NCBI RefSeq assembly: GCF_017487345.1
Contig: NZ_CP062006.1
Coordinates: forward strand, 1,494,001-1,558,000
Direction: 5' to 3'
Source of the DNA: Brevundimonas pondensis
Lineage (GTDB): Bacteria > Pseudomonadota > Alphaproteobacteria > Caulobacterales > Caulobacteraceae
DNA: 64,000 nucleotides
Positions 8,054 through 57,914 of this stretch are shown here, piece by piece. The position numbers were made by a program, and so were the translations under genes. How positions within the stretch are numbered: the first letter of the stretch is position 1; each line of letters starts with the position of its first letter. The notes under the pieces are model-generated. The model was not told the origin of the DNA. It worked only from the letters and a program-made list of their open reading frames with translations, and did not search any database.

Positions 8054-8057
8054 CCCC

Positions 8058-10238: not shown

Positions 10239-10316
10239 TCAGGGCTCCTCATCGCTAGCTTGACTGCGAAGCCAACTGACGAGGACCGAGACGCCCGAGA
10301 AGGCGTGTGACCCTGA

Positions 10317-12760: not shown

Positions 12761-12761
12761 G

Positions 12762-41269: not shown

Positions 41270-41410
41270 TCAGCGGAGCTGCCGGTAGAGGGCTTCGCGG
41301 TTCAGGCGCTCGGCCTCGACCGGACCCCGGGGGACGAAGCGGTCGACGGGGCCGTCGGTGTCCGGACAGGCGGCGGGAACCGGGGCCGTGAGGTACGGGG
41401 CGGCCTTCAC
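41270..41410 (-). CDS. Predicted 46-aa protein between virB5 and virB6
   Basis: GTG at 41410 overlaps the virB5 stop (GTGA), and the frame runs to a TGA at 41270-41272. The product is 46 residues, Pro-rich at first (AAPYLTAPVPAACPDTDGP) and charged at the end (VEAERLNREALYRQLR), with one Cys. No membrane helix or signal. The tight overlap and the shared reading direction favour a real gene; the stretch could also just be leader for virB6. No family recognised. Confidence 0.5.
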   Translation of the reverse strand: MKAAPYLTAPVPAACPDTDGPVDRFVPRGPVEAERLNREALYRQLR

Positions 41411-42135: not shown

Positions 42136-44507
42136 GGAAGTCTCCTCTGCTCATGGAAGGCGTCGCGCCATTGCGCATAGGCGTCGCCGTGCTCCGCCCG
42201 GAGACGGTCGAGAAGGGCGACGGTCTCGGCGCGGCCGGACAGGACCGCCAGGGCGTCGTCCATGCCGGTGAGATCGAGTTCGACCACGACGCCGGCATGC
42301 CCCTGCTTGACCAGAAAGCGGTGGGACTCCGGGGTCAGTTCATCCCGGATCAGGCGGAACTCGGTCTCGCTCAGGCCCAAGCCGTCGACATAGTCGCGTG
42401 CCCGGCCGTGGGCGTTGGGCAGGAAGATGCGGGTCGCGCACTGCTCGAGGATGGCCGGGGCGATCGGCGAGGCGAGCGCATCCGACGGCGACTGGGTGCC
42501 GAACACCATCATCGCGTTCTGCTTGCGCCAGGTCTTCAGGCCGTCCCGGATCAGATCGGTGAAGGCCGGATCGCCCAGCGCCTTCCAGAACTCGTCGATG
42601 TCCAGCACCAGGCGGCGGCCGTCCGCTCGTGCGCCGATCCGGTGCAGCAGATAGAGCATCACCGGCGCGCGGACCTCGGGGTCGTCGAGGATGGTCGTGA
42701 TGTCGAAACCGATCAGGCGGGCGTCCAGGTAGACGGCGTCCTCGGGATTGTCGAGCACCCAACCGAGCGGTCCGCCCCTGACCCAGCGTTCGAGCCGGGC
42801 CCCGATCCCGCCGGCGTCGGCCTGGCCCAACAAGCTCCTCAGCGCCGATAGAGACCGCTGAGCCTCGGGCAGGGCCTCGAGCGCACGTACGCCGTCGTCG
42901 ATGGCGCGCGCCTGCGTCACGGTCAGCGGGTCGTCCGGACGCTCCACCAGGGCGCGTACGAGCCGGGAGAGGAAGGCGCGGTTGGCAGGAGACGGCTCCA
43001 AGGCTTTGAACGGGGCGAAGCCGGTCGGCTCGCCGGCCTTCAGGGCCAGGTAGACGCCGCCCGAGGCGCGCACGAAGATCTCGGCGCCGCGATCCTTGTC
43101 GATGAAGATCTGCTGGACGCCGAACCGTTCGAACTGAGCCAGGATGAAGTTCTGAACCACGGTCTTGCCCGAGCCGGACGGGCCGCAGATGAAGGTGTGC
43201 CCCAGGTCGCCGACGTGAAGGTTCAGGTGATAGGGCGAAGCGGCCGTGGTCTTCAGCACCGCCAGGGCGTCGCCCCAGTGATGGCCCGATGGACGTCCGA
43301 CCGGAGGGGCGTGGAAGGGCGCGAGCGCCGCGAAATTGCGCGAGGTGACGACGGCGGGGCGTGTGCGCCTGCTGAAGTTGCCGGGAAACTGGGCCCAGAA
43401 GGCCGCCTCCAGCCCGAGATCCTCGCGGGCGACCACCAGACCGCTGTCGGCCAGGATGCTGCGCGCCTTCGCCAGATGATCGACCAGGGCCGGCTGATCG
43501 TCGCCGTGGACCAGAACCGAGGCGTGATGTTCGCCCATGACGAAGCGGTTGCTGATCAGATCGTCCAGGGCCGCGGTCAGCCCGTCGATCTGGGAGGCCG
43601 CCCGGTCCCGTGATGAGACCATCTGGTTCTGTTTGCGCTCCATGACGGCGCGGGCTGCGGGCTTGGACAGAAAGGCGAAGGACTGGGCGGCCACGAAGGG
43701 GAAGGGGGCGTCGAGCAGTCCGTCCCACAGACCCGGTCGCGTGACGGACGGATACTCCTTGACCGCCAGGACGCCCGCGAACCGCGTGTCGGCGGCATCG
43801 CGCAGCTCCAGGGTCTCGCGGCCGAAGATGATGCGCGTCGTATAGGCGGCGTCGCCGAGCTGGCCGCAGGTCAGCGGAACCCGCTCGGCGCGGCCCGTCA
43901 GGATCAGCCGGATCATCTCAAGCGGTTCGGAGAACCATAGACCCCTATGCTCATAGAGGCCGAGGCGCCGAGGAGCGTACGGGGCGAGGAACTGCATCAG
44001 GTCGCGGCCCGCGTCCTCCAGGCGTTTCAGCGAGGCGGCGTCGACTTCGGTCCCGCCCCGCCGCGCGGCGCGCAGACGCCGCATCAGGGCGCCGGCGCGG
44101 TCCCCCGCCTCACGTCCCGGATGAAGCACAAGGGTGACGTAGAGCTCGTTGACGAACAGGCGCTGCGTGGACAGCCGGGCGTCATAGGCGGCCGACAGCT
44201 CGCGTGCGAAGTCCGAGACGTGCCCCGTCGCCGGGACGGTTCGGATCCGACGACGGACGACGTGGTGCCAGACGGCCAGCCGATCATCGGCCAGGTTGCG
44301 CCAGGCCTGATTGAGCTTGATGTGCCGGTCGTTGAGGTCGCGGGCGTCGACCGTCTCGAAGGGCGCGCCGTCCAGCTTCAGGCTGAGCATCAGGGCGCCG
44401 CTGTCCAGGACCACGATCCCATCGGCGGCATGGCGGGCATAGGGCAGCGCCGCACGGACGTCCGGTTCGCGCTTCATCAGCCGCAGGGAGACGGAGCCTT
44501 CAGCCAT
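42132..44507 (-). CDS. virB4: VirB4-like transfer ATPase
   Basis: 791 residues from the ATG at 44507, overlapping virB3 by 8 nt. The N-terminal CagE/TrbE/VirB domain (ALPYARHAADGIVVLDSGAL, LFVNELYVTLVLHP) precedes the ATPase: Walker A CGPSGSGKTVVQNFIL (about 446), Walker B RLVLDIDEFWKALGD (about 636), and TQSPSDALASPIAPAILEQC after it. It energises pilin extraction and substrate passage at the inner membrane. Confidence 0.93.
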   Translation of the reverse strand: MAEGSVSLRLMKREPDVRAALPYARHAADGIVVLDSGALMLSLKLDGAPFETVDARDLNDRHIKLNQAWRNLADDRLAVWHHVVRRRIRTVPATGHVSDFARELSAAYDARLSTQRLFVNELYVTLVLHPGREAGDRAGALMRRLRAARRGGTEVDAASLKRLEDAGRDLMQFLAPYAPRRLGLYEHRGLWFSEPLEMIRLILTGRAERVPLTCGQLGDAAYTTRIIFGRETLELRDAADTRFAGVLAVKEYPSVTRPGLWDGLLDAPFPFVAAQSFAFLSKPAARAVMERKQNQMVSSRDRAASQIDGLTAALDDLISNRFVMGEHHASVLVHGDDQPALVDHLAKARSILADSGLVVAREDLGLEAAFWAQFPGNFSRRTRPAVVTSRNFAALAPFHAPPVGRPSGHHWGDALAVLKTTAASPYHLNLHVGDLGHTFICGPSGSGKTVVQNFILAQFERFGVQQIFIDKDRGAEIFVRASGGVYLALKAGEPTGFAPFKALEPSPANRAFLSRLVRALVERPDDPLTVTQARAIDDGVRALEALPEAQRSLSALRSLLGQADAGGIGARLERWVRGGPLGWVLDNPEDAVYLDARLIGFDITTILDDPEVRAPVMLYLLHRIGARADGRRLVLDIDEFWKALGDPAFTDLIRDGLKTWRKQNAMMVFGTQSPSDALASPIAPAILEQCATRIFLPNAHGRARDYVDGLGLSETEFRLIRDELTPESHRFLVKQGHAGVVVELDLTGMDDALAVLSGRAETVALLDRLRAEHGDAYAQWRDAFHEQRRLP

Positions 44508-44835
44508 GACGCAGATCTCGGGCCGAGGCGCGGCGAGCCGGCGGCAGAGGCGTCGGCGAAGACCCGCCCCAGGTCGCGCCGTTGCGCGCCCGGCCCTTGG
44601 TGTCGACATAGGCGAACAGCAGACGGAAGGCGTTGTGATCCGTCCTGCAGACGGCGCGGAACACCAGATGCAGCGCCGGCGCGATGAGCAGGTTCAGAAG
44701 GCTGCCGCCGACCAGAAAGACGACGCCTGAAAGGATGACGTTGACGCCCATGGCCTCCATGGGCACGCCCATGATCATGGCTGGCCGGGTGCAGGCCAGG
44801 AAGAGCGGGTCCTCGATCAGCCGTTCTTCAGCCAT
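44500..44835 (-). CDS. virB3: VirB3-like inner-membrane protein
   Basis: 111 residues. The start LIEDPLFLACTRPAMIMGVPM is the VirB3 signature, followed by two membrane helices (about 25-60). The C-terminal third is basic (RARNGATWGGSSP...ARRASARDLRHG), and its last codons overlap virB4. VirB3 anchors VirB4 to the membrane. Confidence 0.9.
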   Translation of the reverse strand: MAEERLIEDPLFLACTRPAMIMGVPMEAMGVNVILSGVVFLVGGSLLNLLIAPALHLVFRAVCRTDHNAFRLLFAYVDTKGRARNGATWGGSSPTPLPPARRASARDLRHG

Positions 44836-44998
44836 GACCGCCTCCGAGGGCGTTGTTCGCCGCGACGACGAGAAGCGTGCCCAGCCCGAGCCCGCCGGCC
44901 CACCGGGCGAAGCGCCCCGGACCGATCAACCGCCGCCACATCATGACGGCCAGGCCCGCGCAGGCGGCGGCGGGCAGGACGATCCAGGCGGCCGACAT
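44828..44998 (-). CDS. Small two-helix membrane protein in the virB operon
   Basis: 56 residues from the ATG at 44998. Two hydrophobic segments, AAWIVLPAAACAGLAVMMW and WAGGLGLGTLLVVAANNAL, joined by a basic loop, and a tail GGGHG. It overlaps virB3 by 8 nt and shares one base with the end of virB2. The position is between pilin and VirB3. Size and topology suit a pilin-assembly or entry-exclusion membrane protein; I do not recognise a family. Confidence 0.7.
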   Translation of the reverse strand: MSAAWIVLPAAACAGLAVMMWRRLIGPGRFARWAGGLGLGTLLVVAANNALGGGHG

Positions 44999-45300
44999 CA
45001 GCCGCCCCCGGTGATGAGGTTGACGATCTCGGCCGCGCCGAAGACCACCACGATGCCCAGCACGACGATGGCGGCCCGGCGCAGGTCGAACAGACCGAAC
45101 ATCCACAGCACGCCCACGATCACCACCGCCAGGACGGCGAGGAGCCGGGCGGTGTTGCCGGTCAGCATGTCCACCACGTTCTGGAGCAGGCCTTCGACGT
45201 TGGCGGAGGCGAAGGCCGGTCCGGCGCCCGCAAGGCTCGCGGCTCCGGCGATCGTCGCGGCCGCCGCACGGCGGCGCAGTCGTGAGAGAGGTCGGTTCAT
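44998..45300 (-). CDS. virB2: VirB2-like pilin
   Basis: 100 residues. A long signal sequence ending ASLAGAGPAFA|SANVEGLLQ and two membrane helices (about 50-70 and 75-95: LLAVLAVVIVGVLWMFGLFDL and AIVVLGIVVVFGAAEIVNL). This is the TrbC/VirB2 major pilin pattern. It overlaps virB1 by 4 nt. Confidence 0.92.
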   Translation of the reverse strand: MNRPLSRLRRRAAAATIAGAASLAGAGPAFASANVEGLLQNVVDMLTGNTARLLAVLAVVIVGVLWMFGLFDLRRAAIVVLGIVVVFGAAEIVNLITGGG

Positions 45301-45917
45301 GACAGGGAACTCCGTAAGGGCGAGGCATTGAAGGCGGCGACAGGGGCGCCGCGCGCCCGGGCGAAGACGTCCCAGTGCGGGGGCGGGACCTCGGCGGTGA
45401 TCGGGACGGGCTGCGTCCGGACCGTCGCGTCAGGCGCTGGGAGGGCGAGGGAGAGGCGGACGGCGGCGGCCTCCACGCGGCCGACGTAGCCGTTGCGGAA
45501 ACCCCGTTCGGGATGGCCGGTGTTGTATCGGGACAGAGCGGCCCGCAACGCCGCCTGCCGTTGGTCGGGGCGGTCGCCGGCGGGGCGGTAGCCGGCCCGA
45601 AGGACCTCGGCCGAGGCGGCCAGGTTGCGGCACGGGTCGAAGACGTCCTCGATGCTGAGACCCAACCAGGCGAGGTTGCCGCTGTTGATCTGGCCGATGC
45701 CGAGATCAAGGTCGGCGCCGCGCGCCAGAAGATCGCGGGCGATCCGCGCGGCGTCCCCCCGGTCCTGCGGCCGCCGCGACGGACGCGGGCCGCGGTTCAC
45801 CCCGATGGCCAAGGGATCGAAACGGCTTTCGACATAGGCGATGGCCGCAAGCGTCTCCGGGGCCGCAGCGGGGGCGCAGGCCTGAGCCAGGCTGAGGACG
45901 ATCGCGAGATCGAGCAT
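45297..45917 (-). CDS. virB1: VirB1-like lytic transglycosylase
   Basis: 206 residues. The SLT-fold core shows the catalytic Glu in LAAIAYVESRFDPLAIG (about 29), then DLGIGQINSGNLAWLG and a C-terminal LSRYNTGHPERGFRNGYV. It cuts peptidoglycan so the channel can pass. The N-terminus looks like a short signal peptide (AIVLSLAQACAPAAA). First gene of the virB operon; transcription runs leftward from the region near 45.95 kb. Confidence 0.9.
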   Translation of the reverse strand: MLDLAIVLSLAQACAPAAAPETLAAIAYVESRFDPLAIGVNRGPRPSRRPQDRGDAARIARDLLARGADLDLGIGQINSGNLAWLGLSIEDVFDPCRNLAASAEVLRAGYRPAGDRPDQRQAALRAALSRYNTGHPERGFRNGYVGRVEAAAVRLSLALPAPDATVRTQPVPITAEVPPPHWDVFARARGAPVAAFNASPLRSSLS

Positions 45918-45996: not shown

Positions 45997-46263
45997 CTAC
46001 GGTAGGAAGCTGCGCTTCTCCCGCGCCCGGCGTTCTCCGAGCGCGAGCAGAGCGACCGCCTGGATCCGGGTGCGCACGCCGAGCACCCGGCATGCGCCCG
46101 TGAGATGCTCGTCGACGGTGCGGGAGGAAAGGCCAAGACGCGCGGCGATGGCCGCAGACGTCAGCCCCGCTGCGGCCAGGTCGAGGCATTCGGCCTGACG
46201 CGACGAAAGACGAGCCAAGCGGTCGCCCGGTGTCTGACTGTTCGTGGGTGTGATCAGCGTCAT
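45997..46263 (-). CDS. Small LuxR-type (GerE) HTH regulator
   Basis: 88 residues from the ATG at 46263; an upstream in-frame start at 46395 is less likely. Nearly the whole chain is one GerE helix-turn-helix: LSSRQAECLDLAAAGLTSAAIAARLGLSSRTVDEHL, then VLGVRTRIQAVAL. No signal-binding domain. It is transcribed in the same direction as virB and sits 80 bp before it, so it probably controls the transfer operon. A paralogue lies at 57.9 kb. Confidence 0.8.
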   Translation of the reverse strand: MTLITPTNSQTPGDRLARLSSRQAECLDLAAAGLTSAAIAARLGLSSRTVDEHLTGACRVLGVRTRIQAVALLALGERRAREKRSFLP

Positions 46264-46363
46264 GCGCGGAATCGAGCCGGCCCGGCCCTGAAGACGCAAG
46301 GCCGTACGGAGGCGACCGGAGGTGGACGACCGCAGACCTACGGCGGTGAGACCTGAGCGGCGA

Positions 46364-46864
46364 TCATCCGCCTTCGTCGTCGGCGGACGGATCATCCGAT
46401 CCGGGGGTCACGAGGCGGCGCCGACGCTCTTCAAGCCAGGCTTCGGCGTGGGCGTCCCGGGTGACGGCAAGGCCTGCGAGGTCCTTCAAAGCCCGCGTGA
46501 AGACGTTGATGATCGTCCGCCCATCCAGCTCGGCCATGGCATCGCCGACCTCCTCGTCGAATTCCTGCAGCACGACCATGAGGATGGTCGCCAGCTTGTT
46601 GTCGGCGGACCGCACGGCGAAGGCGGGAGAACCCAGCGAGAGCGCCGAGATGATCGCGTGAGGGTCGCTGTCGGTGACGTCGGCGAAGCGGTGGATACGC
46701 TCGAGATTGATGCGGCCCGCCCCGGCTTCGAAATGCTCGTAGGACCGGAGCGCCATGTTCATGCCTTGAGCCACGTCGGCGGCGCGCAGGCGCCGGTGTG
46801 AACGGATCAGTCGCAGGCTCGCGGAAAGGACTGCATTCGGCGACGGATGCTGCTCTGTCTCCAT
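46364..46864 (-). CDS. XRE-type HTH protein
   Basis: 166 residues. The N-terminal third fits a Cro/CI-like DNA-binding domain (LRLIRSHRRLRAADVAQGMNMALRSYEHFEAG-like, INLERIHRFADVTDSDP). A helical region and a charged tail follow. It may be a repressor of the transfer genes or of the element. It lies upstream of the LuxR-type gene and diverges from the GntR-like gene across 271 bp of non-coding DNA. Confidence 0.7.
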   Translation of the reverse strand: METEQHPSPNAVLSASLRLIRSHRRLRAADVAQGMNMALRSYEHFEAGAGRINLERIHRFADVTDSDPHAIISALSLGSPAFAVRSADNKLATILMVVLQEFDEEVGDAMAELDGRTIINVFTRALKDLAGLAVTRDAHAEAWLEERRRRLVTPGSDDPSADDEGG

Positions 46865-47135: not shown

Positions 47136-47702
47136 ATGAGAACGCGCGACCCGTTCGGAACGGCGCTGGGAAGCCTCCGCGCGGCGCTCGACCAGGGGCT
47201 GGCGCCCGGACGACACCTGCCGGTCGCGGATATCGCGGCTGCGCTCAAGCTGAGCGCTTCGCCGGTGCGTGAAGCCCTGTCGCGGCTGTGTGGAGAAGGC
47301 CTGATCGAGGACCGTCGCGGCTTCGGCTATTTCACGCGCAGCACGCCCCAGGAGGACATCATCGGTCTTCTCGACCTGGAGGAGGTCCATATCCTTCTGG
47401 CGGCGAAAACATCTGCGGTCCCGCTGCCTGGTCCCGCATCCGACAGGGTGATCGAGGCCTGGATGCTCAGTCTCATGGAAGGCTGCGCCAACCTTCCGCT
47501 CGTGGAAAGCCACCTCCGCGTCCGCCGACAGCTCGATCCCTTGAGGCGGCTGCATGGTCCGAGAGACCTCTCTTCACCTGCTTCGGACGAGAATGGCGTC
47601 GAGGCCTATTATGATCGATGGCGTCTCGCATCCGTCGAGCTGGCCGCGCGTCTGAGGCGCATGGACCCGGCGCCGCCCGAATATACGACGAATAGAGTTT
47701 GA
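47136..47702 (+). CDS. GntR-family regulator preceding the lasso locus
   Basis: 188 residues. The winged HTH is clear: LGSLRAALDQGLAPGRHLPVADIAAALKLSASPVREALSRLCGEGL (split) and EDRRGFGYFTRS. The C-terminal effector domain is shorter than an FCD domain (helical, about 75-185). It lies 70 bp before the first lasso precursor, on the same strand, and may control it. Confidence 0.8.
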   Translation: MRTRDPFGTALGSLRAALDQGLAPGRHLPVADIAAALKLSASPVREALSRLCGEGLIEDRRGFGYFTRSTPQEDIIGLLDLEEVHILLAAKTSAVPLPGPASDRVIEAWMLSLMEGCANLPLVESHLRVRRQLDPLRRLHGPRDLSSPASDENGVEAYYDRWRLASVELAARLRRMDPAPPEYTTNRV

Positions 47703-47772: not shown

Positions 47773-47901
47773 ATGACTGCCCGACCCAACTCACGCCTCG
47801 TCCGCCTGGGCGCCGCCCGCCGGCTCACCCGCGCGGTCAACGACGCGACCTACCTCGAACTGAACTCGCCCAAGGAATACGACATCCCCCCGGGCGAGTG
47901 A
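47773..47901 (+). CDS. Lasso-peptide precursor 1
   Basis: 42 residues, preceded by GGAGA. The leader holds L9-x3-G13-x5-T19-x, the recognition pattern of proteobacterial lasso leaders, though the Tyr and Pro that often precede it are absent. T19 is at the -2 position, so the core should be residues 21-42, starting with Ala. Glu9 of the core would close a nine-residue ring (A1-E9), leaving a 13-residue tail with L10-N11-S12-P13, a bulky Tyr16 as a possible plug and a C-terminal PPGE. Ala1 cores are known from caulonodins. The assignment rests on the adjacent B and C genes, the twin precursor and this register. Confidence 0.82.
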   Translation: MTARPNSRLVRLGAARRLTRAVNDATYLELNSPKEYDIPPGE

Positions 47902-47999
47902 CGTGGAGGCCGCTCGACGGCCCCAAGGAACGCCCGGTCAACGGCCTCGCCCGGACGTCCAAGATCAGAGGTCGATGCCGACGGAAGAGGAGACGGATC

Positions 48000-48125
48000 A
48001 TGTCGATCCCGACCGCAACCCGCCTGCTGCGGCTGGGCCGGGCGCGTCGCCTGACGCGCGCCGGCCATGACGGGGAGTTCTTCGAACTGAACTCTCCGCG
48101 CAAGTGGGACATGCCGTCCGAATGA
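48000..48125 (+). CDS. Lasso-peptide precursor 2
   Basis: 41 residues, preceded by GAGGAGA. The leader again shows L9-x3-G13-x5-T19-R20, and RRLTR is identical to precursor 1. The predicted core (residues 21-41) begins A1-G2-H3 with Glu9 as ring acceptor, then L10-N11-S12-P13, Trp16, D17 and a C-terminal PSE: 9-residue ring plus 12-residue tail. Core positions A1, D4, E9, L10-P13, D17 and P19 agree with precursor 1, while ring residues 2, 3 and 5-8 differ. It probably arose by duplication. An alternative core starting at Gly (E8 ring) would put Thr at -3, which is less likely. Confidence 0.82.
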   Translation: MSIPTATRLLRLGRARRLTRAGHDGEFFELNSPRKWDMPSE

Positions 48126-48155: not shown

Positions 48156-48209
48156 GATCCCCTGTGTTCGAAGGGATGACGCGGCCCGCCCCGATCGGAG
48201 GAGATGACG

Positions 48210-48872
48210 ATGCCTGCACGCCCCCGCCTAGCCTCCATCGACCGTCAGGCTCGGCTTGCTCCGGACATTCATGCGGTTCGAACCGGACGCGACCTCATTC
48301 TCCTCGACCTGGCCGCGGATGACTACCTCTGTCTGCCCGAGTGCGGTCCGCTCGAAATATCGGGCGCTGTCATCCGCGGCCCGATGGAGACGCTCCTGAG
48401 GATGGCGTCCGAGGAACTGCTTCAGCCCGAACACGCCCCGGCGCCGGCTCGAAAGGTTCCGCCTGGGCTTCCCAAGACGCCGTCGGCTCTGCCGACCACA
48501 GTGCGTCCGACCATCGGCGATCTGGCGACTTTCACCCTGATCTGGCTCGACGCCGTACGCCGCCGCCCGACCCTCGCGGGTCTCGCCCGGCGGATGCAGG
48601 GGCGTCGCGGTCGTCGGAACGACCCGGCGGCAGTCGCCGCGCGGGTGGAGATCTTCAACCGCATTCTGCCGCTGGCGCCGTGGACGGGCGCCTGCCTGCT
48701 GCAGGCGGAGCTCCTTTTGCGATTCCTGAACGCCGCCGACCTCGACGCCGATTGGGTTTTCGGCGTCCGAACCTGGCCCTTTCTGGCGCACTGTTGGCTG
48801 CAGAACGGAGATGTCTGCGTCAGCCAGGCTCCGGAGACCCTGACGATCTACCGGCCGATACTGGTGATTTGA
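48210..48872 (+). CDS. Lasso-peptide B protein (leader-binding plus peptidase)
   Basis: 220 residues from the ATG at 48210, 7-9 nt after GGAGGAG; the ATG at 48204 is too close to that site. The N-terminal about 80 residues suit the leader-binding RRE-like domain (IHAVRTGRDLILLDLAADDYLCLP). The C-terminal transglutaminase-like Cys protease has the catalytic Cys in PWTGACLLQAELLLRFL (about 160), His in FLAHCWLQ (about 193), and NGDV following. It cuts the leader off at T-R|A. B1 and B2 activities are thus in one chain, usual in Alphaproteobacteria. Confidence 0.9.
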   Translation: MPARPRLASIDRQARLAPDIHAVRTGRDLILLDLAADDYLCLPECGPLEISGAVIRGPMETLLRMASEELLQPEHAPAPARKVPPGLPKTPSALPTTVRPTIGDLATFTLIWLDAVRRRPTLAGLARRMQGRRGRRNDPAAVAARVEIFNRILPLAPWTGACLLQAELLLRFLNAADLDADWVFGVRTWPFLAHCWLQNGDVCVSQAPETLTIYRPILVI

Positions 48873-48874
48873 CG

Positions 48875-50587
48875 ATGAGCGCGGAGGCTGCTGTCATCCT
48901 TGTTGCGGATCACCCTGCGGCGCTCGCGGATCTTACGGCGCCGCTCCGAGGTCGCCTGGCCCGGGCGGGGTGGTCCTGCAGGGCCGATCATCCCTTCATC
49001 AGAGCCTATGCTCCCACGGAAGGCCGGCTGGCCATCACGCCTGCTTTCGACGGTCACGGCCTGCTCATCGGGGACGTCTTCGACACGGAGGGGCGGCCTC
49101 TGTCGATGGATGCACGTTGCAGCCTGGGTTGCGGGGTTCTGAACGTCGTTCGGGCGAACATGCTCATCGGTTCGGTTTGGGGAAGATATGTCCTGATCCG
49201 CAGAGCGGCGGACGGCGTCTCCATCCTGCGTGACCCGTCCGGCGCCCTGGAGGCGATGGTCTGGCGTAAGGCCGGCGTGACGGTGATCGCCACCGCGGCC
49301 GATCCCGTTCTAGATCCCCTCCTTCCAGACGATCTCGACATCGACCCGGAAGGCGTCGCCGCGCTGGTCGAACGTCCCGGTGAGTTTTTTCACAGTCCCG
49401 CCCTCCGCGGCGTCAATCCGATCGCGGCCGGCGAACTGCGCACGATGGAGGCGGGCGGGGCGCGCTCGAAACAGATCTGGACCCCGGCCGGGGCCTATCG
49501 GGCGGGGCGAGCAACGCCGCCGCCACTGCGCGAAACAGTCGAGCGGGCGGTCCGCGCGATGGCCGGAGACCGCTCCTGGGTGGCTGAGCTCTCCGGCGGA
49601 CTGGATTCGGCCATCGTAGCGGCGGCCCTGTCCGACGGGCAGCGCCGCCGCGTGACCGCCTGGGTCAACCACTATGTCGACCAACCCGAGGGGGATGAAC
49701 GGACCTACGCTCGAGCCGTCGGCGACCGGCTCGGCTTCAGCCTCACCGAAGTCAGGCGCAACGCCCTTCTGATCGATGAAGCGAGGCTGGCCCGGACGGC
49801 GGAAGGGTTCCGGCCTGCCGTCAACGACCTCGACCTCACCTACAATGACGATATCGCCGACCGCATCGACGCTTCAGGAGCCTGGGGCTCCCTGACCGGC
49901 CAAGGCGGCGACGCCGTCTTCTTCCAGATGCCGACGCCTCTGATCGCTCTGGATGAGATACGGGAACGCGGGCTGCGCGCCCGGGCGTCCGTCATCCACC
50001 GGACCGCGCGGTGGACGCGTCGCTCGGTCTGGCCGCATGCCTGGTGGAGCGCCTGGCGCGATCACCGTAGGAGCCGCGCCGGCTGGGACCATCCCTGGCT
50101 GACCGATCTGCGCGGCGTTCCGCCCGCCAAGGCGTTGCAGATATCGGTCCTGGCCTTCTGCCAGACCTTCCAAGGACTGGCAGGGCGGAGCCGGCGCGGT
50201 CCCTGCTTCAATCCGCTGCTGAGCCAGCCGGTGATGGAGGCGGGACTGGCGTGGTCCAGCGTCGAGCTCACCCGCGGCGGCCGCGACCGCGCCGCGGTCC
50301 GCGCAGCCTTCTCCGATGTCCTGCCGTCCTCGCTGATCGCACGCCGGTCGAAGGGCGAACTGGGCGTCTTCTACGGCGAGGCCGTTTCGGCCCGGTTGGA
50401 TTTCCTGCGCGATTATCTGCTCGGAGGCGCGCTCGCCGAGGCCGGACTGATAAGGCCCGGCCTCGACGAGCTTCTCGTCCGCGAAACCCTTCTGTGGCGA
50501 GGAGGCTTCCAGAAGGTGCTCGGTCTAGCCCTTACGGAAGCCTGGCTGCGGTGTTGGACGGAGCGTCTGCGTCGCCGTCGGGCCTGA
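48875..50587 (+). CDS. Lasso-peptide C protein (macrolactam synthetase, asparagine synthase-like)
   Basis: 570 residues from the ATG at 48875, 2 nt after the B gene. The N-terminal part resembles the glutaminase-like half of asparagine synthetase (residues 1-200). The synthetase half carries the PP-loop AELSGGLDSAIVAAAL (about 237-250) and GSLTGQGGDAVFF. It adenylates the ring Glu side chain and joins it to the core N-terminus. Its 3' end overlaps the oppositely oriented isopeptidase gene by 56 nt. Confidence 0.92.
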   Translation: MSAEAAVILVADHPAALADLTAPLRGRLARAGWSCRADHPFIRAYAPTEGRLAITPAFDGHGLLIGDVFDTEGRPLSMDARCSLGCGVLNVVRANMLIGSVWGRYVLIRRAADGVSILRDPSGALEAMVWRKAGVTVIATAADPVLDPLLPDDLDIDPEGVAALVERPGEFFHSPALRGVNPIAAGELRTMEAGGARSKQIWTPAGAYRAGRATPPPLRETVERAVRAMAGDRSWVAELSGGLDSAIVAAALSDGQRRRVTAWVNHYVDQPEGDERTYARAVGDRLGFSLTEVRRNALLIDEARLARTAEGFRPAVNDLDLTYNDDIADRIDASGAWGSLTGQGGDAVFFQMPTPLIALDEIRERGLRARASVIHRTARWTRRSVWPHAWWSAWRDHRRSRAGWDHPWLTDLRGVPPAKALQISVLAFCQTFQGLAGRSRRGPCFNPLLSQPVMEAGLAWSSVELTRGGRDRAAVRAAFSDVLPSSLIARRSKGELGVFYGEAVSARLDFLRDYLLGGALAEAGLIRPGLDELLVRETLLWRGGFQKVLGLALTEAWLRCWTERLRRRRA

Positions 50588-52907
50588 GGTGGCGATCGAA
50601 CCAGGTCAGCACCTGCTCGTAGTAGACACGGGCGTTCCCGGGGCCGTGAATACCGTGCGCCTCGCCGAACAACAGGGTGAGGGCGGCCGGTCGGTGAAGA
50701 CGACGCAGGGCCGCATACATCTGTCCGGCTTGATCCGGGGCCGTATCCAGTTCCCCGTGGACCAACAGGACGGGCGCGTTGATCCGGTCGGCCGCTTCGA
50801 AAGGACTGTTGCGTCTGTAGCGCTCGGGATCTCTCCAGTAGGCGCGCAGCATTCGCGCCTGACCCGTCTCCAGCCATCTCGCGTTGCCCGAGTTAGTGTA
50901 GTCGTTCGCACCGGCTATCCGGTCGGACGACGAGGTGTCGCCGATTGCGGAGGCCAGCTGATAAATGCCGTTGTGCGCTACGATCGCGCCGAACCGGGAT
51001 GACTGGCTCGCGCTCATCGCGACGGTCCAGGCCCCGAAGCTGTGTCCCCATAAGCCGATGCGGAGCGGATCGACCAGACCTTCGTCGGCTGCTGCGTCGA
51101 CAACCGCGAGAAGGCGGTCCGCCAGGCCGTCGGCCGGCTCCGGCGTCTCCGGGAGATCGGGATAGAGGACGGCATAGCCGGCCGCGACGAGAAGCGCGCC
51201 GTTCTGAACCAGATTGACGGATTCCGGGATCATGGCGGCCGGCGGCGAAGCGTAGGTCTTTCCCGGATATGGGATGACCACCACGGGCGGCGGGGCCGCC
51301 CCGGTCCTCTGCGGAAGATAGAGCCAACCTCTTGCGCCCGAAGCCCCGCGGACCTCCCGGGGGAGGATCCGTTCGACGGCGTCGAGTTCGGGATTGAGGC
51401 GGATTACGATCCGCGTTCCGTCGGCGGTGCGCAGGGTCAGGGTGTTGAGGCCCCGTCCTTCAGCACCCCGTTCCAGAACGGCGCCGCTCGCCCATCCGAC
51501 GGCGGCCCCCGGGGCGGCGTGCAGGCATGCCTCCGCCTGCGGATCATCCGCCCGTATCCGGCATAGGCGGTCTCCGTCACGTGCGACGACCGCCTCTCCG
51601 CTCTTCAACGGATCAAACCGGCTGCGCTGGCCGAAAGGCCCGTCCGGACGGACGGCGGTCGCCGCGGCGCCGACGTCGCGGGCGAGGCGGTCGGGCCCGA
51701 CCCGGAGGATGCGGCCGCCGTCGGCGAACAACAGCGATGAGCGGCCCTGCGCCGTGAGACGCGCCTGACGGCGCACGCCTTCGAGCGGAACGGCGCCGTC
51801 CGGGCCCTGCAGGAACCATCCCGGCGTCCCGTTGAGGCTGCCGAGGACGACCGGCGCGCCACCCGACCAGCCCGCCTGGACCGTCGGACTGCCGTACACG
51901 TCAACGGCCGTATCCAGCGACACCCCCTTGGGCGTCACTTGCCGTGCGGTCCCGCCGGGCGCGACCGCAAACAGGGTAGGGCGGTCGCCCAGGGCGGCGA
52001 CGAGCAGGGCTTCGGACGAGGGCGCCCAGGACAGCAGGCTTGTCGAGATGTCAACCGCAGCGGACGGATCGATCGCCGCTCCGGTCTCCAGGTTCACCAG
52101 CCTCAACGTCCTCGCCCGGCGCAATTCGGTCGCCGTGTCGGCGTCCGGAGGCGGCAGGATCGGACCGTCCTGGAGGAGCGCTGCATGCTTCCGGTCCGGC
52201 GAGACCTCGAAATCAAGGAACGGCCCTTCTGAAAGCGACTCCGCTGCGCCGGTGCGGGCGTCGATCCGCCACAGACGACGCGCGGGCGGCGGCGGGGGCG
52301 GGACATCCGAGCCGGACGTGACGTACGCCGCTTGTCCGGAGGCGGCCCGCGCCCAGAGACCTGGAGCCTGCTGTTGCAGGGCGTTCATCTGCTCCAGGCG
52401 CGGCGGAAGTCCGCCGTCCGGCATGCCCAGGACGAGGAGCGCATCATCCGACAGCCATTCGACGGCACGTCCCCAGGCTCCGCTTTCCGGCGATACGTCG
52501 GTCCAGGTCACCGCGCCGGTATCGAGCTCAACCAGTCCGAGCCGCAGCGAAAGCCCTTGCAGCCGGTAGACTACGAGACGGCTTCCCCCCGGGGAGAAGG
52601 GGCCCATCCGATACCCCGCGTCGTCCGCCTGCGGCAGGAGGGGGCGGCTCCTCCCGGACGACCCCAGGTCGATGCGGTGGAGCCTGGCGTACCAGAGCGC
52701 GCCTTCCGCCTGGAGGTCGAAGCGCGGAAGATCGTTCCGGGCGCGCCGTTCTTCGAACACGCCGACCCTGCCGGTCGGATCCACGGCGATCCGACCGAAG
52801 GTCTCGAGGCCCAGAAGGGTGTCGAGGGTGAGGGGATCGGCCCGCACGGGACCGGCTCCGGCCATGACGGAGAGGGCGCAGACCGCGCCGAGCAGCATTG
52901 ATCGCAT
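50532..52907 (-). CDS. Lasso-peptide isopeptidase (S9 prolyl-oligopeptidase-like)
   Basis: 791 residues. Signal peptide (GAVCALSVMAGAGPVRA), a beta-propeller region (about 40-530), then an alpha/beta-hydrolase domain with Ser in LWGHSFGAW (about 620), Asp in VHGELDTAPD (about 720) and His in GEAHGIHGPG (about 750). Enzymes of this type in astexin-like loci hydrolyse the ring isopeptide bond and linearise the peptide in the periplasm. It is 7 nt downstream of the TonB receptor gene in the same operon, which supports uptake and breakdown of the peptide. A general dipeptidyl-peptidase role is the alternative. Confidence 0.85.
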   Translation of the reverse strand: MRSMLLGAVCALSVMAGAGPVRADPLTLDTLLGLETFGRIAVDPTGRVGVFEERRARNDLPRFDLQAEGALWYARLHRIDLGSSGRSRPLLPQADDAGYRMGPFSPGGSRLVVYRLQGLSLRLGLVELDTGAVTWTDVSPESGAWGRAVEWLSDDALLVLGMPDGGLPPRLEQMNALQQQAPGLWARAASGQAAYVTSGSDVPPPPPPARRLWRIDARTGAAESLSEGPFLDFEVSPDRKHAALLQDGPILPPPDADTATELRRARTLRLVNLETGAAIDPSAAVDISTSLLSWAPSSEALLVAALGDRPTLFAVAPGGTARQVTPKGVSLDTAVDVYGSPTVQAGWSGGAPVVLGSLNGTPGWFLQGPDGAVPLEGVRRQARLTAQGRSSLLFADGGRILRVGPDRLARDVGAAATAVRPDGPFGQRSRFDPLKSGEAVVARDGDRLCRIRADDPQAEACLHAAPGAAVGWASGAVLERGAEGRGLNTLTLRTADGTRIVIRLNPELDAVERILPREVRGASGARGWLYLPQRTGAAPPPVVVIPYPGKTYASPPAAMIPESVNLVQNGALLVAAGYAVLYPDLPETPEPADGLADRLLAVVDAAADEGLVDPLRIGLWGHSFGAWTVAMSASQSSRFGAIVAHNGIYQLASAIGDTSSSDRIAGANDYTNSGNARWLETGQARMLRAYWRDPERYRRNSPFEAADRINAPVLLVHGELDTAPDQAGQMYAALRRLHRPAALTLLFGEAHGIHGPGNARVYYEQVLTWFDRHLRPDGDADAPSNTAARLP

Positions 52908-52913
52908 GGCGGC

Positions 52914-55859
52914 CTACCAGCGCTTGACGAGCTGGAGGGAGATGCGGCGACCGAAGATGTCGGTGTTGGCGGCGTCGTAACCGTAGCCCGAAGGAGAATC
53001 GTAGAAGGGCGGCTCGCTGTTCGCCAGATTGATGACGTCCAGGGTGACCGAGACCCCTTCGCCCCAGCCCTCGGCGAAGTCGTAGCGGATCTGACCGTCG
53101 AAGGTGGTCCAGTCGTCTATGCTGCGCCCGCCGACCGGATCGCGACCGCCGCTCACATGGTTGGCGTTGAGGCCCAAGGTCACCGGACCGCTCGTCCACC
53201 GGCCGCCGATCCGGCCCCGCCATCGCGCCGGAAAGTTCGGCGTTCCGACCAGAGCTTCCGTCGGCGAGGTCTCGGTCAGCTCCCGATCGTATCGCAGCAG
53301 CCGTGTGATCGAGCCGTCGACGGAGGCCTCGCCCGGCCCCAGATCGAAGGCGTAGCGCGCTGAGATGTCGACGCCCTCGACCTCAAGGCGCGAGGCGTTG
53401 ACGAAACGATTGTCGATAACGGCGCCGTAGGACGTTGCAGGGAAGACGTTGGGGTTGAAGTTTCCGGGGTGATCCAGAAGCGATTGGACCAGGGCCCTGT
53501 CCTCGGCGTTCGAAACCGGGTTCACGAACCGCACGAAGGGCGCAAGGGTGGGGTCGTTGAGAGCGTTGGCGACGTTCTCCGACACCGGGTTGCCGATGCG
53601 GTCGTCGAAGCGCGTCCGGAACCAGCCGGCCTCCAACCTGAAGCCGTCGGCCGCGGCCGGCGTCCAGACGAAGCCCGCGGTCGTCGATTCCGCCGTTTCC
53701 GGATCCAGATCGGGATTCCCGCCGTACCGGATCACCGAGAGCACATTGGCGCCGTTTCGGTTCAGAAACGCCGGACCGAGCTGATAGGTGGTGTAGAGTT
53801 CCCGCAGCGACGGCGCGCGGAAGGACGTGCCGTAGCTGGCGCGCAGCAGAAGGTCCGAGGTCGGGCTGTAGAGAAGGCCGACCTTAGGATTGGTGGTCCG
53901 GCCGACGCCTTGGTGATCTTCGATGCGGGCCGCCAGGGACAGTTCCAGTCGCTCGATGCCGGGGCGGGGGTTGTCCGCGCCGACGATCGGCGCACGGAGC
54001 TCGACGAAGGCGGCCGAGACATCCCGCTCGTATATGGTCGGGGCCGTCAGTCGAGGCGTCTGACCGGACGTGAAGTTTTCGCCTTCGGTCTCGAAGCGTT
54101 CGCGCCTGACGTCGACGCCTGCAGCCGTCCGCAGCGGTCCGCCGGGCAGATCCAGGATCGTGCCGTCGATCTTGAAGTTGAAGGATCCGACCGTGCTGAC
54201 GTTCTCGACCCGGGTGTAGCCTGAACCGATAAAGGCCAGGACGGCGGCGCTGTTTGCGGCCGGATCGCCGTAGGGGTTGAAGAAGCCGTCCACGGCGGTG
54301 CTGAAGGGCGTCGCCGGATTGTCCGGCGTTCTTCCCAAGGCTTCCGCCAGGTAGGTGGTCTGGACACGGTTGGACAGGGTCCGGCCGCTGATCTCGCGCG
54401 CCCCGCTCACATAAGCGGCGAGATTCCATCCGAGAACCCGACCCTCAAGACCTGCGGCGCCGCCCAGACTGCGGGTTCGGCCGTCCGACCGGCCGGGCCC
54501 GAGATCCCGGATGTAGGAATAGGCGATCTCCTGCATCGTCTCTCCGGTCGGGGAGGCGAAATAGGGGTTGGCCGGCGTCACGACGATCGTGCCGATGTCG
54601 GCCGGGGTCGCCAGAACGTAGTCCCGCTCGGTGTAGCGGAGATCACCGTCCAGGCTGAACCCGCCGGGCAGGTTCTGGCGCGCCGCCGCGAACACGCTCT
54701 GGCGACGCTGGTGCGGCAGCATCCACTGGCCTTCGTTCTGATTGGTGAGATTGACCTCACCGGCGAGGAAATCGCCCGGCGCCAGACCTACGCCGTTCTG
54801 ACCTCTGGGGATGGCGTAGACCGGGTCGAAGGACCCGGTGACGGGGTCGAAGTACATGATGTTGCCGGGCGCGGCGTGGAACAGCCGGTGGTCCGATCCG
54901 CCCAGCGGACGAAGGTCGGCGCTGCGGGTGGCGCGACGGTCCTCCGCCCGCAGTTCGCCGCGGTCGTGGACCTCGTAGGACGCCACCAGACTGCCGCTCG
55001 ACCAGTTGAAGCCGTCGGTATGGGAGAAGAGAACCTCCTCGGCGCCGCCGTCGCTCGTGCCGCCTACCCGCAGTCGGCTCTCCGCGCCGTCGAAGCGGGA
55101 CTTCAGGATGATGTTGACCACGCCGCCTACGGCGTCGGCTCCGTAGAGAGCCGAGGCGCCGTCGAGCAGAACGTCCGCCCGCTGGACGACGCTGGACGGC
55201 AGGTTGGACACGTCGGCGAAATCGCCCGCGCTGCCTGTCCCGGCGATCCGGCGGCCGTTGACCAGGACCAGGGTGGCGTCGGCGCCCAGGCCGCGCAGAT
55301 TGACGCCGGTCGCATAGCCGAGATTGCGCCCCGAGCGGTCGGCGCCGGTTCCGGCCGAACCCTCGAACGCGCTTCCGGTGAAGTTCTGGGGCAGGGCGGC
55401 CAAGGCGTCCGCCACCGTGGCCCGTCCGCTCCGCGCGACATCGTCCTGCGTCATCATGATCACCGGAGACGGGCTGTCGGCGCCGCGAAGATAGCTGCCG
55501 GTGACGACGACCTCATCCAGCTCCGTCACCTCCGTCTCGGCATCCGCACGGGCGCTCGGATCGACGAGGACGTAGACGTTCGGCCGGCTGCGCCTATAGG
55601 TCAGGCCCGTGTCGCGCAGGAGCAGACCCAGCGCGGCTTCCGGCGTGAACTCGCCCGCCACGGCCGTGGAGCTCCGCCCGGCCACGAGGGCGCTGGGGTA
55701 GAGGATCTGCTGCCCGCTCTGTCTGGCGAAGGCCGGAAGGGTCCGTTCGAGCGGACCCGGCGCGATGTCGAAACGACGCATCGCTTCGACCTGCGCCGTC
55801 GCAGGCGTCGCCGCCATTATGAGCGCCGCCAGGGCGGCTGAAGTGAATTCCGGTCTCAT
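52914..55859 (-). CDS. TonB-dependent receptor/transducer of the lasso locus
   Basis: 981 residues from the ATG at 55859. Signal peptide, then an STN signalling domain (about 30-90: FDIAPGPLERTLPAFARQSG, EFTPEAALGLLLRDTGL), a TonB-box region (TELDEVVVTGSYLRG), the plug (about 140-260) and the barrel ending ISLQLVKRW. The STN domain marks a receptor that signals through FecR to an ECF sigma factor, both encoded just upstream. It probably imports the mature lasso peptide or a metal complex of it. The 91 bp upstream contain the A/T tract AAAAAATTTCC in a GC-rich setting, a possible promoter element for the ECF factor. Confidence 0.9.
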   Translation of the reverse strand: MRPEFTSAALAALIMAATPATAQVEAMRRFDIAPGPLERTLPAFARQSGQQILYPSALVAGRSSTAVAGEFTPEAALGLLLRDTGLTYRRSRPNVYVLVDPSARADAETEVTELDEVVVTGSYLRGADSPSPVIMMTQDDVARSGRATVADALAALPQNFTGSAFEGSAGTGADRSGRNLGYATGVNLRGLGADATLVLVNGRRIAGTGSAGDFADVSNLPSSVVQRADVLLDGASALYGADAVGGVVNIILKSRFDGAESRLRVGGTSDGGAEEVLFSHTDGFNWSSGSLVASYEVHDRGELRAEDRRATRSADLRPLGGSDHRLFHAAPGNIMYFDPVTGSFDPVYAIPRGQNGVGLAPGDFLAGEVNLTNQNEGQWMLPHQRRQSVFAAARQNLPGGFSLDGDLRYTERDYVLATPADIGTIVVTPANPYFASPTGETMQEIAYSYIRDLGPGRSDGRTRSLGGAAGLEGRVLGWNLAAYVSGAREISGRTLSNRVQTTYLAEALGRTPDNPATPFSTAVDGFFNPYGDPAANSAAVLAFIGSGYTRVENVSTVGSFNFKIDGTILDLPGGPLRTAAGVDVRRERFETEGENFTSGQTPRLTAPTIYERDVSAAFVELRAPIVGADNPRPGIERLELSLAARIEDHQGVGRTTNPKVGLLYSPTSDLLLRASYGTSFRAPSLRELYTTYQLGPAFLNRNGANVLSVIRYGGNPDLDPETAESTTAGFVWTPAAADGFRLEAGWFRTRFDDRIGNPVSENVANALNDPTLAPFVRFVNPVSNAEDRALVQSLLDHPGNFNPNVFPATSYGAVIDNRFVNASRLEVEGVDISARYAFDLGPGEASVDGSITRLLRYDRELTETSPTEALVGTPNFPARWRGRIGGRWTSGPVTLGLNANHVSGGRDPVGGRSIDDWTTFDGQIRYDFAEGWGEGVSVTLDVINLANSEPPFYDSPSGYGYDAANTDIFGRRISLQLVKRW

Positions 55860-55950
55860 CGAACTCCCCCGATGTCTTATCCGCCTGACTGCGGAGTGGG
55901 GAAGAGACGGTGCGTTGCGGAGCACACCCTAACCGGCGAGGAAATTTTTT

Positions 55951-56928
55951 CTACGGAGCGCCGGCGAGGACGATACGGCCGTCCGGGGCGCGCCGGACTT
56001 CGAGCGGATAGAGATCCGTCAGCGCCGCGACGAAGCCGTCGACGTCTCCGGCGTCGAACGCGCCGCTGACGCGGTTGGCGGCGACGCCGCCGTCGCGGAT
56101 CTCGATCGGGTTGCGTGTGTAACGGTTGACCTCTGCGACGGCGACGGCGACGGGCGTATCCTCGAAGATCAGCCGACCGGTCGTCCAACTGGTCGCTACG
56201 GGGATGCTGACGCTCGCCACGACCGGTTGCGGGGCCGAGGTGACCACCTGCTGGCCCGGGTTCAGCGACCACGTCCGTTCAGGCGTTGCGGCGTCCCGCA
56301 CCGCCACACGTCCCTCGATGAGGACCACGCGCGCGCCGTCCGTCAGGCGGCGTACGTCGAAACGGGTGCCCAGGGCGGTGACCTCCGCATCGCCGGCCGT
56401 CACGACGAACGGCCGCGCCGGATCGCCTTCAACGTCGAACAGAGCTTGCCCTTCAGTCAGAGAAACGGACCGGCGCTCTCCGGTGTAGCGGACACGGATG
56501 CTCGACGCCGTGTCCAGAGTGATCCGGGAGCCGTCGTCGAGAACCACGACCCGTTGCTCGCCCACCTCGGTTGCGTAGGTGACGGGCTGCTGGAGAAACC
56601 AGACCCAGCCGAGCCCCGCCGCCACGACCAGGGCGGCGCCGGCCGCACCCAGCGGTTTGAGAACCCCGACGAGGCGCTCGCGACGCGGCTGACCGGCTGC
56701 GCGTGTCCGGGCGTCTTCGACCAGCGCGGCCATGTTCGGCGCGCCGGCCAGATTTCCGGCGGTGTCCCACAGCGCTTCGATACCGGCATAGGCGGCCGCA
56801 TTCTCGGGATCCCGACGCCAGGCGCTGAACGCCTTCACGTCGTCGGCCGTGACCCGGCGCTGATTGAGCCGCGCGAACCAGTCCGCGGCTTGCTTGCGCC
56901 TGCTTTCGGCAGCTTCGATCGTCATCAA
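55951..56928 (-). CDS. FecR-like anti-sigma/signal-transduction protein
   Basis: 325 residues. An N-terminal DUF4880-type segment (residues 1-45, ADWFARLNQRRVTADDVKAF), one membrane helix (about 92-112, GAALVVAAGLGWVWFLQ) and a periplasmic FecR domain with GEQRVVVLDDGSRITLDTAS and ALFDVEGDPARPFVV. A C-terminal STN-like end (about 245-325) would meet the receptor. It relays receptor occupancy to the sigma factor, whose gene ends 7 nt before it. Confidence 0.9.
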   Translation of the reverse strand: MMTIEAAESRRKQAADWFARLNQRRVTADDVKAFSAWRRDPENAAAYAGIEALWDTAGNLAGAPNMAALVEDARTRAAGQPRRERLVGVLKPLGAAGAALVVAAGLGWVWFLQQPVTYATEVGEQRVVVLDDGSRITLDTASSIRVRYTGERRSVSLTEGQALFDVEGDPARPFVVTAGDAEVTALGTRFDVRRLTDGARVVLIEGRVAVRDAATPERTWSLNPGQQVVTSAPQPVVASVSIPVATSWTTGRLIFEDTPVAVAVAEVNRYTRNPIEIRDGGVAANRVSGAFDAGDVDGFVAALTDLYPLEVRRAPDGRIVLAGAP

Positions 56929-56935
56929 TCTTCGC

Positions 56936-57427
56936 CTAGAGGTCCAACCGGGAAGCGCAGTACTCGAGCGCCCTGGACATCCGCCATTCCACCGTCTTGA
57001 CGCTGATGCCGAGGGTCCGGGCGATCTCCGGATAAGTCATACCGCTAAAGCGGCTCAACACGAAGACATCGCGATAGAGTTGCGGCATGGCGGCGATGAC
57101 GTCGCTCAGCATGATCTGGTCGATCTGCGGCGCGTTCTCCGACTCGGCAGGACGATGCCGCTCCAGCGCACGGCTGCGTCGGACCTCACGGCGATGCTCG
57201 TCGCGCACCAGATTCATGGCCACCGTGAGAAGGAAGGCCTTGGGGTGCCGGATGTCGTCCGCAGCATGGGGGGCGATCCGGAGATAGGTCTCCTGCACGA
57301 CGTCTTCGGCCGCATCGGAGCCGATACGCGCCCGCAGGCGTCGGTTGAGCCAAGCCGCGTAGCGCCGATAAAGACGGCTCAATCCGTCATCGGCGGCGTC
57401 TGCTCCTATATGCTCCGCTTCGGTCAC
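56936..57427 (-). CDS. FecI-like ECF sigma factor
   Basis: 163 residues when started at the GTG at 57427, preceded by GGAGAGG; the open frame reaches 57613 but the extra N-terminus is unlike the family. Region 2 is GSDAAEDVVQETYLRIA, region 4 is MTYPEIARTLGISVKTVEWRMSRAL. It should direct transcription of the receptor/isopeptidase genes, and possibly of the precursors, when the receptor is occupied. Confidence 0.88.
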   Translation of the reverse strand: MTEAEHIGADAADDGLSRLYRRYAAWLNRRLRARIGSDAAEDVVQETYLRIAPHAADDIRHPKAFLLTVAMNLVRDEHRREVRRSRALERHRPAESENAPQIDQIMLSDVIAAMPQLYRDVFVLSRFSGMTYPEIARTLGISVKTVEWRMSRALEYCASRLDL

Positions 57428-57914
57428 GTGCCTCTCCGGCCTCAGAACGAGAGCCTCGGAATCCGGGACGTGGACGAGCAGCGTCGAACACGCGCGCGTG
57501 CTCGGAGCCCCGCAAAAGGCCGCAGAACCCGCACGCAGGGCGGCGGGTCGAAGTCGGGTGTCGCACAGGGGATTCCAAGCCCCTACCGACGCAGGCGTCG
57601 GCGGCATCAGCATGAATCAAACTGAATCGGGGCGCAAGCGGGAGGGGTCGGGCGTTGGAATCCTCTGCGTTCGCGAGGCCCGCTGCTTCGGCCTGCGGCA
57701 CCGCCTCCGCCTTGAAGACGGACCCCGGCTCCCGCTGCACGCCTATCTCACGGCGCCCGACATCCATGCGTCTACGATCGGCCTGCGGACGCCGCAAGTC
57801 CTGCACGTGGGCAGTCTGATCTCCGCAAAAACCTGGCGGGCGACCCGCAATTCACTGTCGTTGCGGTTCAGATGAGTCGCGCGTTACGGGACTGACGTAC
57901 TCGGGGAGGTGAAG
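57428..57914 (+). other. 487-bp gene-poor region between the sigma factor and the LuxR-type gene
   Basis: This is the divergent control region for the FecI-like gene and the small LuxR-type gene. An 87-codon plus-strand frame is open at 57612-57875, but its composition is unlike the neighbouring genes and no domain is seen. GGGGAGG at 57903-57909 is the ribosome-binding site of the next gene. No other signal is clear. Confidence 0.4.

Follow-up and report, generated by a model that had tools for sequence, protein, structure and literature searches.

Caulonodins VI and VII are reportedly products of Caulobacter sp. K31, with the description credited to Zimmermann et al. in 2014. Lasso precursors carry, as a highly conserved signature, a Thr two residues before the core, and the first core residues observed include, for example, Gly, Cys, Ser and Ala, and also Asn (PMC12670498, accessible passages). 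In the accessible text of PMC12427821, the core of caulonodin VI is given as AGTGVLLPETNQIKRYDPA and that of caulonodin VII as SGIGDVFPEPNMVRRWD, and both peptides are listed as produced in E. coli in the available part of PMC7549694. The passages of these two papers also provide brevunsin from Brevundimonas diminuta, a lasso peptide with an acidic core, Gly1, Glu9 and a proline-rich end (YPPAG). At the level of gene clusters, GntR-A-B-C accompanied by an S9 isopeptidase, a TonB receptor and FecI/FecR constitutes the isopeptidase-type lasso layout, and the lasso loop is named as the main recognition element for isopeptidases (PMC9266682, in the passages available).

The window, that is, the whole 64 kb stretch of Brevundimonas pondensis DNA analysed here, very probably contains a two-precursor Brevundimonas lasso peptide cluster of the isopeptidase type, a reading built on observed genes, motifs, gene order, conservation and selection. 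The precursor genes A1 and A2 stand in tandem, separated by 98 bases (Table 1), and have in common L-x3-G-x5-T-R followed by Ala1 and, further on, Glu9; in the numbering of each precursor, Leu9, Gly13, Thr19 and Arg20 are followed by Ala at residue 21 (core 1) and Glu at residue 29 (core 9). Both have the Thr two residues before the core and the Asp or Glu at core 7-9 by which a lasso precursor was defined, and neither matched a Pfam or NCBIfam model. Core residues 10-13 are L-N-S-P in both, position 16 is occupied by Tyr in A1 and by Trp in A2, and the C-termini are PPGE and PSE, respectively. The preliminary description, which had reported two short genes before B and C with this leader motif, these first and ninth core residues and these shared and differing tails, is borne out by direct reading in all of these points.

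Comparison with the described peptides, as far as their sources are accessible, places A1 and A2 as a twin of the caulonodin VI/VII type, comprising two precursors, the Glu9 register, and Tyr16-Asp17 alongside Trp16-Asp17. Caulonodin VI shares Ala1, Glu9, Asn11, Lys14, Tyr16 and Asp17 with A1, while caulonodin VII shares Gly2, Phe7, Glu9, Asn11, Arg14, Trp16 and Asp17 with A2. Differences lie in the first residue (Ala1 in caulonodin VI and Ser1 in VII, whereas both window peptides have Ala1), in the longer window tails with their Pro-Pro-Gly-Glu and Pro-Ser-Glu, and in Leu10 and Ser12-Pro13 of the window, where caulonodins VI and VII have Thr or Pro at position 10 and Gln or Met at position 12. 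Brevunsin resembles the window peptides in its acidic core, Glu9 and proline-rich end and differs in having Gly1 instead of Ala1; its core was absent among the precursors read at the compared loci. The earlier statement that the acidic second half of the cores was unlike any lasso peptide is not supported, given the register, ring size, Asn11 and Tyr16-Asp17/Trp16-Asp17 shared with caulonodins VI and VII and the YPPAG end of brevunsin. Additionally, a metagenome-assembled Caulobacter (locus L099) encodes a core identical to that of caulonodin VI and a second precursor resembling VII, followed by B, C and then an opposed S9 peptidase and TonB receptor, with a C protein 34% identical to that of the window.

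A precursor pattern (ATG 3-25 codons before [LIVM]-x3-G-x5-T-x-[GASC], the core being 14-30 residues long with an acid at position 7-9) matched exactly 2 sites on both strands of the 64 kb, those of A1 and A2, while 60 dinucleotide shuffles yielded a mean of 0.15 matches and a maximum of 1. Since this pattern was designed after the finding had been seen, the homologues weigh more than the shuffle test. The protein collection contains 4 relatives of A1 (86-97% identical) and 2 of A2, one of them identical to A2. A PDB search with the A1 core gave one chance match only, and searches of plasmid and viral contigs gave no match. Between A2 and B, the intergenic fold was not clearly better than that of shuffles (z -1.06), and a promoter and terminator scan provided nothing useful, the stem-loop there not being terminator-like.

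Table 1. Features of the lasso peptide cluster and its upstream regulators, in window coordinates
Feature	Position	Strand	Basis and remarks
Small LuxR-type HTH protein	45997..46395	-	Labelled by eye; same place in relatives (tblastn synteny)
XRE/Cro-type HTH regulator	46364..46864	-	Pfam HTH_31 24.5 bits, under cut-off 27; syntenic in relatives
GntR-type regulator	47136..47702	+	5' of A1; Pfam GntR 38 bits, cut-off 27
Precursor A1	47773-47901	+	42 codons + stop; ORF list, homologues, selection analysis
A1 leader MTARPNSRLVRLGAARRLTR	47773-47832	+	
A1 core AVNDATYLELNSPKEYDIPPGE	47833-47898	+	Predicted Ala1-Glu9 ring, Tyr16 plug candidate
Precursor A2	48000-48125	+	41 codons + stop; ORF list, homologues, selection analysis
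A2 leader MSIPTATRLLRLGRARRLTR	48000-48059	+	
A2 core AGHDGEFFELNSPRKWDMPSE	48060-48122	+	Predicted Ala1-Glu9 ring, Trp16 plug candidate
Stem-loop	48134..48155	+	Between A2 and B; GC-rich; stem of 9 bp and loop of 4 bases; lacks a U run
B protein, leader peptidase	48204..48872	+	222 aa; NCBIfam lasso_biosyn_B2 62.3 bits, cut-off 33; Pfam Transglut_core3
C protein, asparagine-synthetase-like macrolactam cyclase	48875..50587	+	570 aa; Pfam Asn_synthase 72.3 bits; SGGLDS at residue 240
S9 (prolyl-oligopeptidase) peptidase, candidate lasso isopeptidase	50532..52907	-	791 aa; Pfam Peptidase_S9
TonB-dependent receptor with N-terminal STN signalling domain	52914..55925	-	1003 aa; Pfam barrel, Plug, STN
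FecR-type anti-sigma regulator	55951..56928	-	Pfam FecR
FecI-type ECF sigma factor	56936..57613	-	Pfam Sigma70_r2/r4_2; NCBIfam sigma70-ECF above cut-off

The genes around the precursors follow the isopeptidase-type layout. GntR-A-A-B-C is opposed by the S9 peptidase, the TonB receptor with STN, FecR and FecI, so that a GntR gene precedes the A genes and the four opposed genes come after C; no exporter, of the ABC type or other, was found by Pfam in the span from GntR to FecI. The B2 transglutaminase-like domain that identifies B as a leader peptidase forms its C-terminal half, while the N-terminal stretch of about 100 residues, presumed to be the leader-binding B1 part, had no Pfam or NCBIfam match and can be aligned to the B protein of a fused-type relative. 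C is an asparagine-synthetase-like protein homologous to the C proteins beside caulonodin VI (L099) and caulosegnin-like (L118) precursors; it remains below the NCBIfam lasso cyclase cut-offs (lass_lactam_cya 18.7 against 525), and a PDB search with it gave no match. On the upstream side, conjugation-type (T4SS) genes at 41407-45917, including a TrbE/VirB4-like protein, a T4SS protein and an SLT transglycosylase, end beside the lasso cluster.

The S9 peptidase displays, by eye, the Ser-Asp-His motifs GHSFGAW, HGELD and HGIH. Because its score of 59.8 bits against the NCBIfam Atxe2 family (NF033523) does not reach the cut-off of 400, it is not filed as an Atxe2 member; the S9 peptidase of the caulonodin VI-type locus L099 is also under this cut-off, at 65.8 of 400. 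A profile of 24 sequences hits AtxE2 (7e-21), with an S9 family peptidase ranked above it (5e-39). The AlphaFold model (pLDDT 88.9) has the two-domain S9 fold, composed of a propeller and an alpha/beta-hydrolase domain. According to Foldseek, its closest solved folds are S9 carboxypeptidases and other S9 peptidases, ahead of the lasso isopeptidases, of which SpI-IsoP (5jrk) was matched with an E value of 2.4e-25 at rank 22. Lasso isopeptidases were absent among the 50 VIA-align matches listed for the model, which was not taken as counter-evidence. Taken with the position of its gene, the modelled fold fits an enzyme that probably works like a lasso isopeptidase.

To place the cluster among its relatives, 131 Brevundimonas genomes were searched with C, and 69 gave a match at E 0.001 or better. 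Loci with a C match of at least 57% identity over most of the protein were regarded as window-type, yielding 24 loci in 22 genomes, the window included; many of these are near copies, so the counts below do not represent independent events. Reading beside C gave precursors in 22 of the 24 loci, with two intact ones in 21 (the window counted in both). Among the intact precursors, Glu9 is present in 42 of 42 and Ala1 in 40 of 42, the two with Ser1 both belonging to L041, and in all 21 loci with two intact precursors the first core has Tyr16 and the second Trp16. These counts lend support to the earlier proposal of lasso precursors with Ala1 and a predicted Glu9 ring and to that of Tyr16 and Trp16 as plug candidates. 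In L039, which shares its C with L038 (compared over the last 400 residues or the whole overlap), the leader of A2, the Trp16 precursor, is interrupted by a stop codon (TGA), and no precursor was found in L214 and L222 within the 2.2 kb examined; the precursor pair is therefore not indispensable. Of the 11 window-type loci L033-L043, 10 carry the whole array, upstream XRE and LuxR-like genes included; in the eleventh, L036, it stops at a contig end. A third, uncounted precursor was observed in L073, L211, L212, L215 and L217, with Gly after T-R (Arg in L215) and the acid shifted.

Selection across nine of the window-type loci is concentrated on the leaders, with pN/pS of 0.22 (A1) and 0.27 (A2). 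Rings are nearly free to change (0.85 and 0.82), and loops (0.77 and 0.45) and tails (0.69 and 0.93) are weakly constrained. Since Glu9 is kept in every intact precursor while the rings otherwise change almost freely, the predicted Ala1-Glu9 ring is well supported, though not proven. A separate Brevundimonas lasso family was encountered upstream of C in L057, L058, L061, L062, L064, L065, L067, L068, L097 and L103, with Asp1 and Glu9 in all 12 aligned precursors and an invariant G-x5-T-x-D and E. As the examples in the accessible passages of PMC12670498 comprise Gly, Cys, Ser, Ala and Asn, Asp1 would be new. The profile of this family matches 44 of the 131 genomes at E 0.001, the precursors of the window itself being among its weaker hits.

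The genome of the window carries a second C homologue (G000:C1:606685), and the ORF before it (7508-7741 of locus L003; G000:C1:605507-605740) comprises 78 codons with leader, core, leader and core in one frame, reading MLKTLSGLIRLGSAAVHTR and AEIGIEKAELNPVYRYDDLGARAD for the first unit and IVRLGGAEQQTR and ADSPDGHFELIPVQRWEMNGATR for the second. Fused precursor ORFs of this kind are present in 21 of the 131 Brevundimonas genomes (loci L154-L174), with two units in 14 and three in 7; in G101, the start and the first leader are unclear. All fused units in the 21 genomes have T-R directly before Ala1, with Glu9. The Tyr16 unit comes first and the Trp16 unit last, sometimes with a third unit between; the last unit has Trp16 in 18 genomes and Tyr16 in 3 (G033, G136 and G165), and these three carry a separate one-unit precursor as well. 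Loci L046, L228 and L229, which combine a two-unit fused precursor with a separate one-unit precursor, all with Tyr16, were noted as an exception to the Tyr-then-Trp order. A three-unit query against 390 genomes of the family matched 24, namely the same 21 together with G275, G265 and G303; G275, from another genus, also has a two-unit precursor, and G265 and G303 have separate one-unit genes. Across 80 compared loci, multi-unit ORFs were found in only 4 (L081, L087, L088 and L089), all from Brevundimonas.

A tree of 68 C proteins, built by a quick method with SH-aLRT support only and without rows under 440 aa, unites the 11 fused rows in one clade of 14 (SH-aLRT 99), the other three being loci without a precursor found. 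Its neighbour is L045, whose split cluster has Phe16/Trp16 (support 93); the window-type clade comes next, with a support of 92. Labels of split and fused were assigned by regular expression, with rows lacking a precursor left unlabelled; L045 was set to split by hand, its double match being an over-long ORF, the split label of L058 derives from a chance match, and L070, a fused locus with C in two frames, is absent from the tree. In nine of the 11 fused loci examined, the full set of GntR, B, C, the S9 peptidase, the TonB receptor, FecR and FecI is present, with B and C each in one frame. The window genome's own second cluster (L003) is damaged, with B in two frames (7794-8416) and with C and the S9 gene set about 6 kb apart by a stretch (10152-16331) that holds a serine recombinase, a Resolvase/Recombinase protein with an HNH-associated repeat.

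Assembly errors or a stop loss in one strain were considered as a source of the fused ORFs and rejected, as these ORFs are found in 21 of 131 genomes and their divergence is that of coding sequence. Counted per site, nonsynonymous change lags behind synonymous change, with dN/dS between 0.13 and 0.48 in those five pairs that have over four differences, the raw counts of the two kinds of change being similar in several. Segment values were pooled from nine two-unit sequences in three groups of three, whose pairs are not independent. In this pooled set, pN/pS is lowest in the loops (0.09 and 0.06 for units 1 and 2) and amounts to 0.46 and 0.33 for the rings and to 0.47 for the unit 1 tail with its linker; it is 0.88 in the first residues, which are nearly unconstrained, and 1.90 in the short, unconstrained tail of unit 2. 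The most constrained part is accordingly the loop in the fused units and the leader in the window-type precursors.

A multi-core precursor in the full sense, understood as at least two leader-core units in one ORF with no start between them, was found in L003 and L052, where no ATG, GTG or TTG occurs between codon 3 and unit 2 and unit 2 must therefore come from the upstream start. Seven other checked fused ORFs may have a second start because of in-frame internal start codons, an ATG inside core 1 in L053 and L055 and an ATG or GTG before or in the leader of a later unit in L044, L046, L047, L049 and L051. This bears on an alternative that is considered unlikely: that a fused precursor gives a lasso peptide from one unit only, the last, the earlier ones merely extending the leader as dead or structural sequence. 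In its favour, no core but the last ends in a free C-terminus, and unit 1 would retain the following leader as a tail if it is not trimmed; the first leader, with a pN/pS of 0.58, looks less constrained than the internal one at 0.23; and where internal starts precede unit 2, this unit might be made alone. Against these points, unit 1 keeps Ala1, Glu9 and Tyr16, its loop and the internal leader are among the segments with low pN/pS, and L003 and L047 differ by the in-frame gain or loss of one whole 36-codon unit. The two loci without an internal start also argue against it.

A bolder reading, which appears reasonably probable, takes the window twin to be one version of a two-peptide lasso system that has been conserved, of which the sister clade would encode the pair as a single multi-core precursor, with one translation yielding two or three lasso peptides in fixed ratio and B cutting at the internal leaders. 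Judged by the sequences, the Tyr16/Trp16 pair is an old unit kept together, in two genes in window-type clusters and in one polypeptide in the sister clade, to which the second cluster of the window's genome also belongs. As the plug residues and their order are kept across split and fused clusters, both members are suggested to act together; the kept order and pairing argue for such joint action, and the loop constraint in the fused units is consistent with a pair of peptides using the same receptor and the same S9 peptidase and differing in ring and plug. Joint action of the pair would narrow its function to a two-part signal or carrier.

By analogy with the protein families concerned, cleavage, cyclisation, threading, uptake, signalling and ring opening may be outlined as follows. 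B would recognise the L-x3-G-x5-T leader of A1 and A2 and cleave after T-R, and C would link the Ala1 amine to the Glu9 side chain, trapping the tail, which Tyr16 (A1) or Trp16 (A2) would hold in its threaded position as the plug. The TonB receptor with its STN domain would most likely re-import the peptides and signal through FecR to FecI, and the S9 peptidase would open the ring in the periplasm. In the fused precursors, cuts after T-R would free the last unit, while earlier units would keep the next leader as a tail unless trimmed.

Many lasso peptides are antibacterial, and reviews treat them so; the proposal that the window encodes antibacterial lasso peptides against competitors, which are not re-imported and opened, is nonetheless quite improbable, with no ABC exporter in the gene span from GntR to FecI and with the peptides known from isopeptidase clusters, except astexin-1, being without antimicrobial activity in the available passages of PMC9266682. 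Decay of the window cluster, with genes present and no peptide made, is less probable still. The damage to the second cluster of the same genome and the stop codon in A2 of L039 give it some ground, whereas all eleven genes listed in Table 1 are open reading frames and purifying selection acts on the leaders across species. Scarcely credible is a lasso ring closed at Asp4, which is present in A1 and A2, or at Glu6 of A2, or a core that starts elsewhere, as these acids are not conserved among relatives in which Glu9 is kept throughout, the conserved Thr two residues before the core fits the core start assigned here, and lasso rings of 4 or 6 residues, which such closures would entail, are not known.

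Taken by itself, the isopeptidase-type lasso cluster of the window is a new example of an already-known lasso kind. Its gene layout is the same as that of the astexin-2/3, benenodin-1 and sphingopyxin I clusters, as far as the sources on these are accessible, and it differs from them in its core family and in an S9 peptidase far under the Atxe2 cut-off. The peptides of isopeptidase-type clusters are mostly no antibiotics, yet genes for uptake and ring opening are present.

The fused sister precursors extend this comparison. As far as the open-access literature searched extends (titles, beginnings of abstracts and passages, with subscription papers outside the search), tandem leader-core lasso precursors, or multi-core lasso precursors of any kind, are not described. 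If the multi-core reading is true, these would be the first tandem leader-core precursors of any lasso system, and a lasso could form on a segment still bearing the next leader as its tail. The fused precursors would also serve as natural templates for obtaining several lasso peptides from one gene and as a test case for the action of B and C on internal segments. Among other RiPPs, cyanobactins are a multi-core class. Graspetides and fungal repeat precursors, in the passages available on them, carry several cores per polypeptide, as the fused sister precursors do; what distinguishes the latter from multi-core RiPPs of other classes is that they are composed of lasso-type units, each with its own leader.
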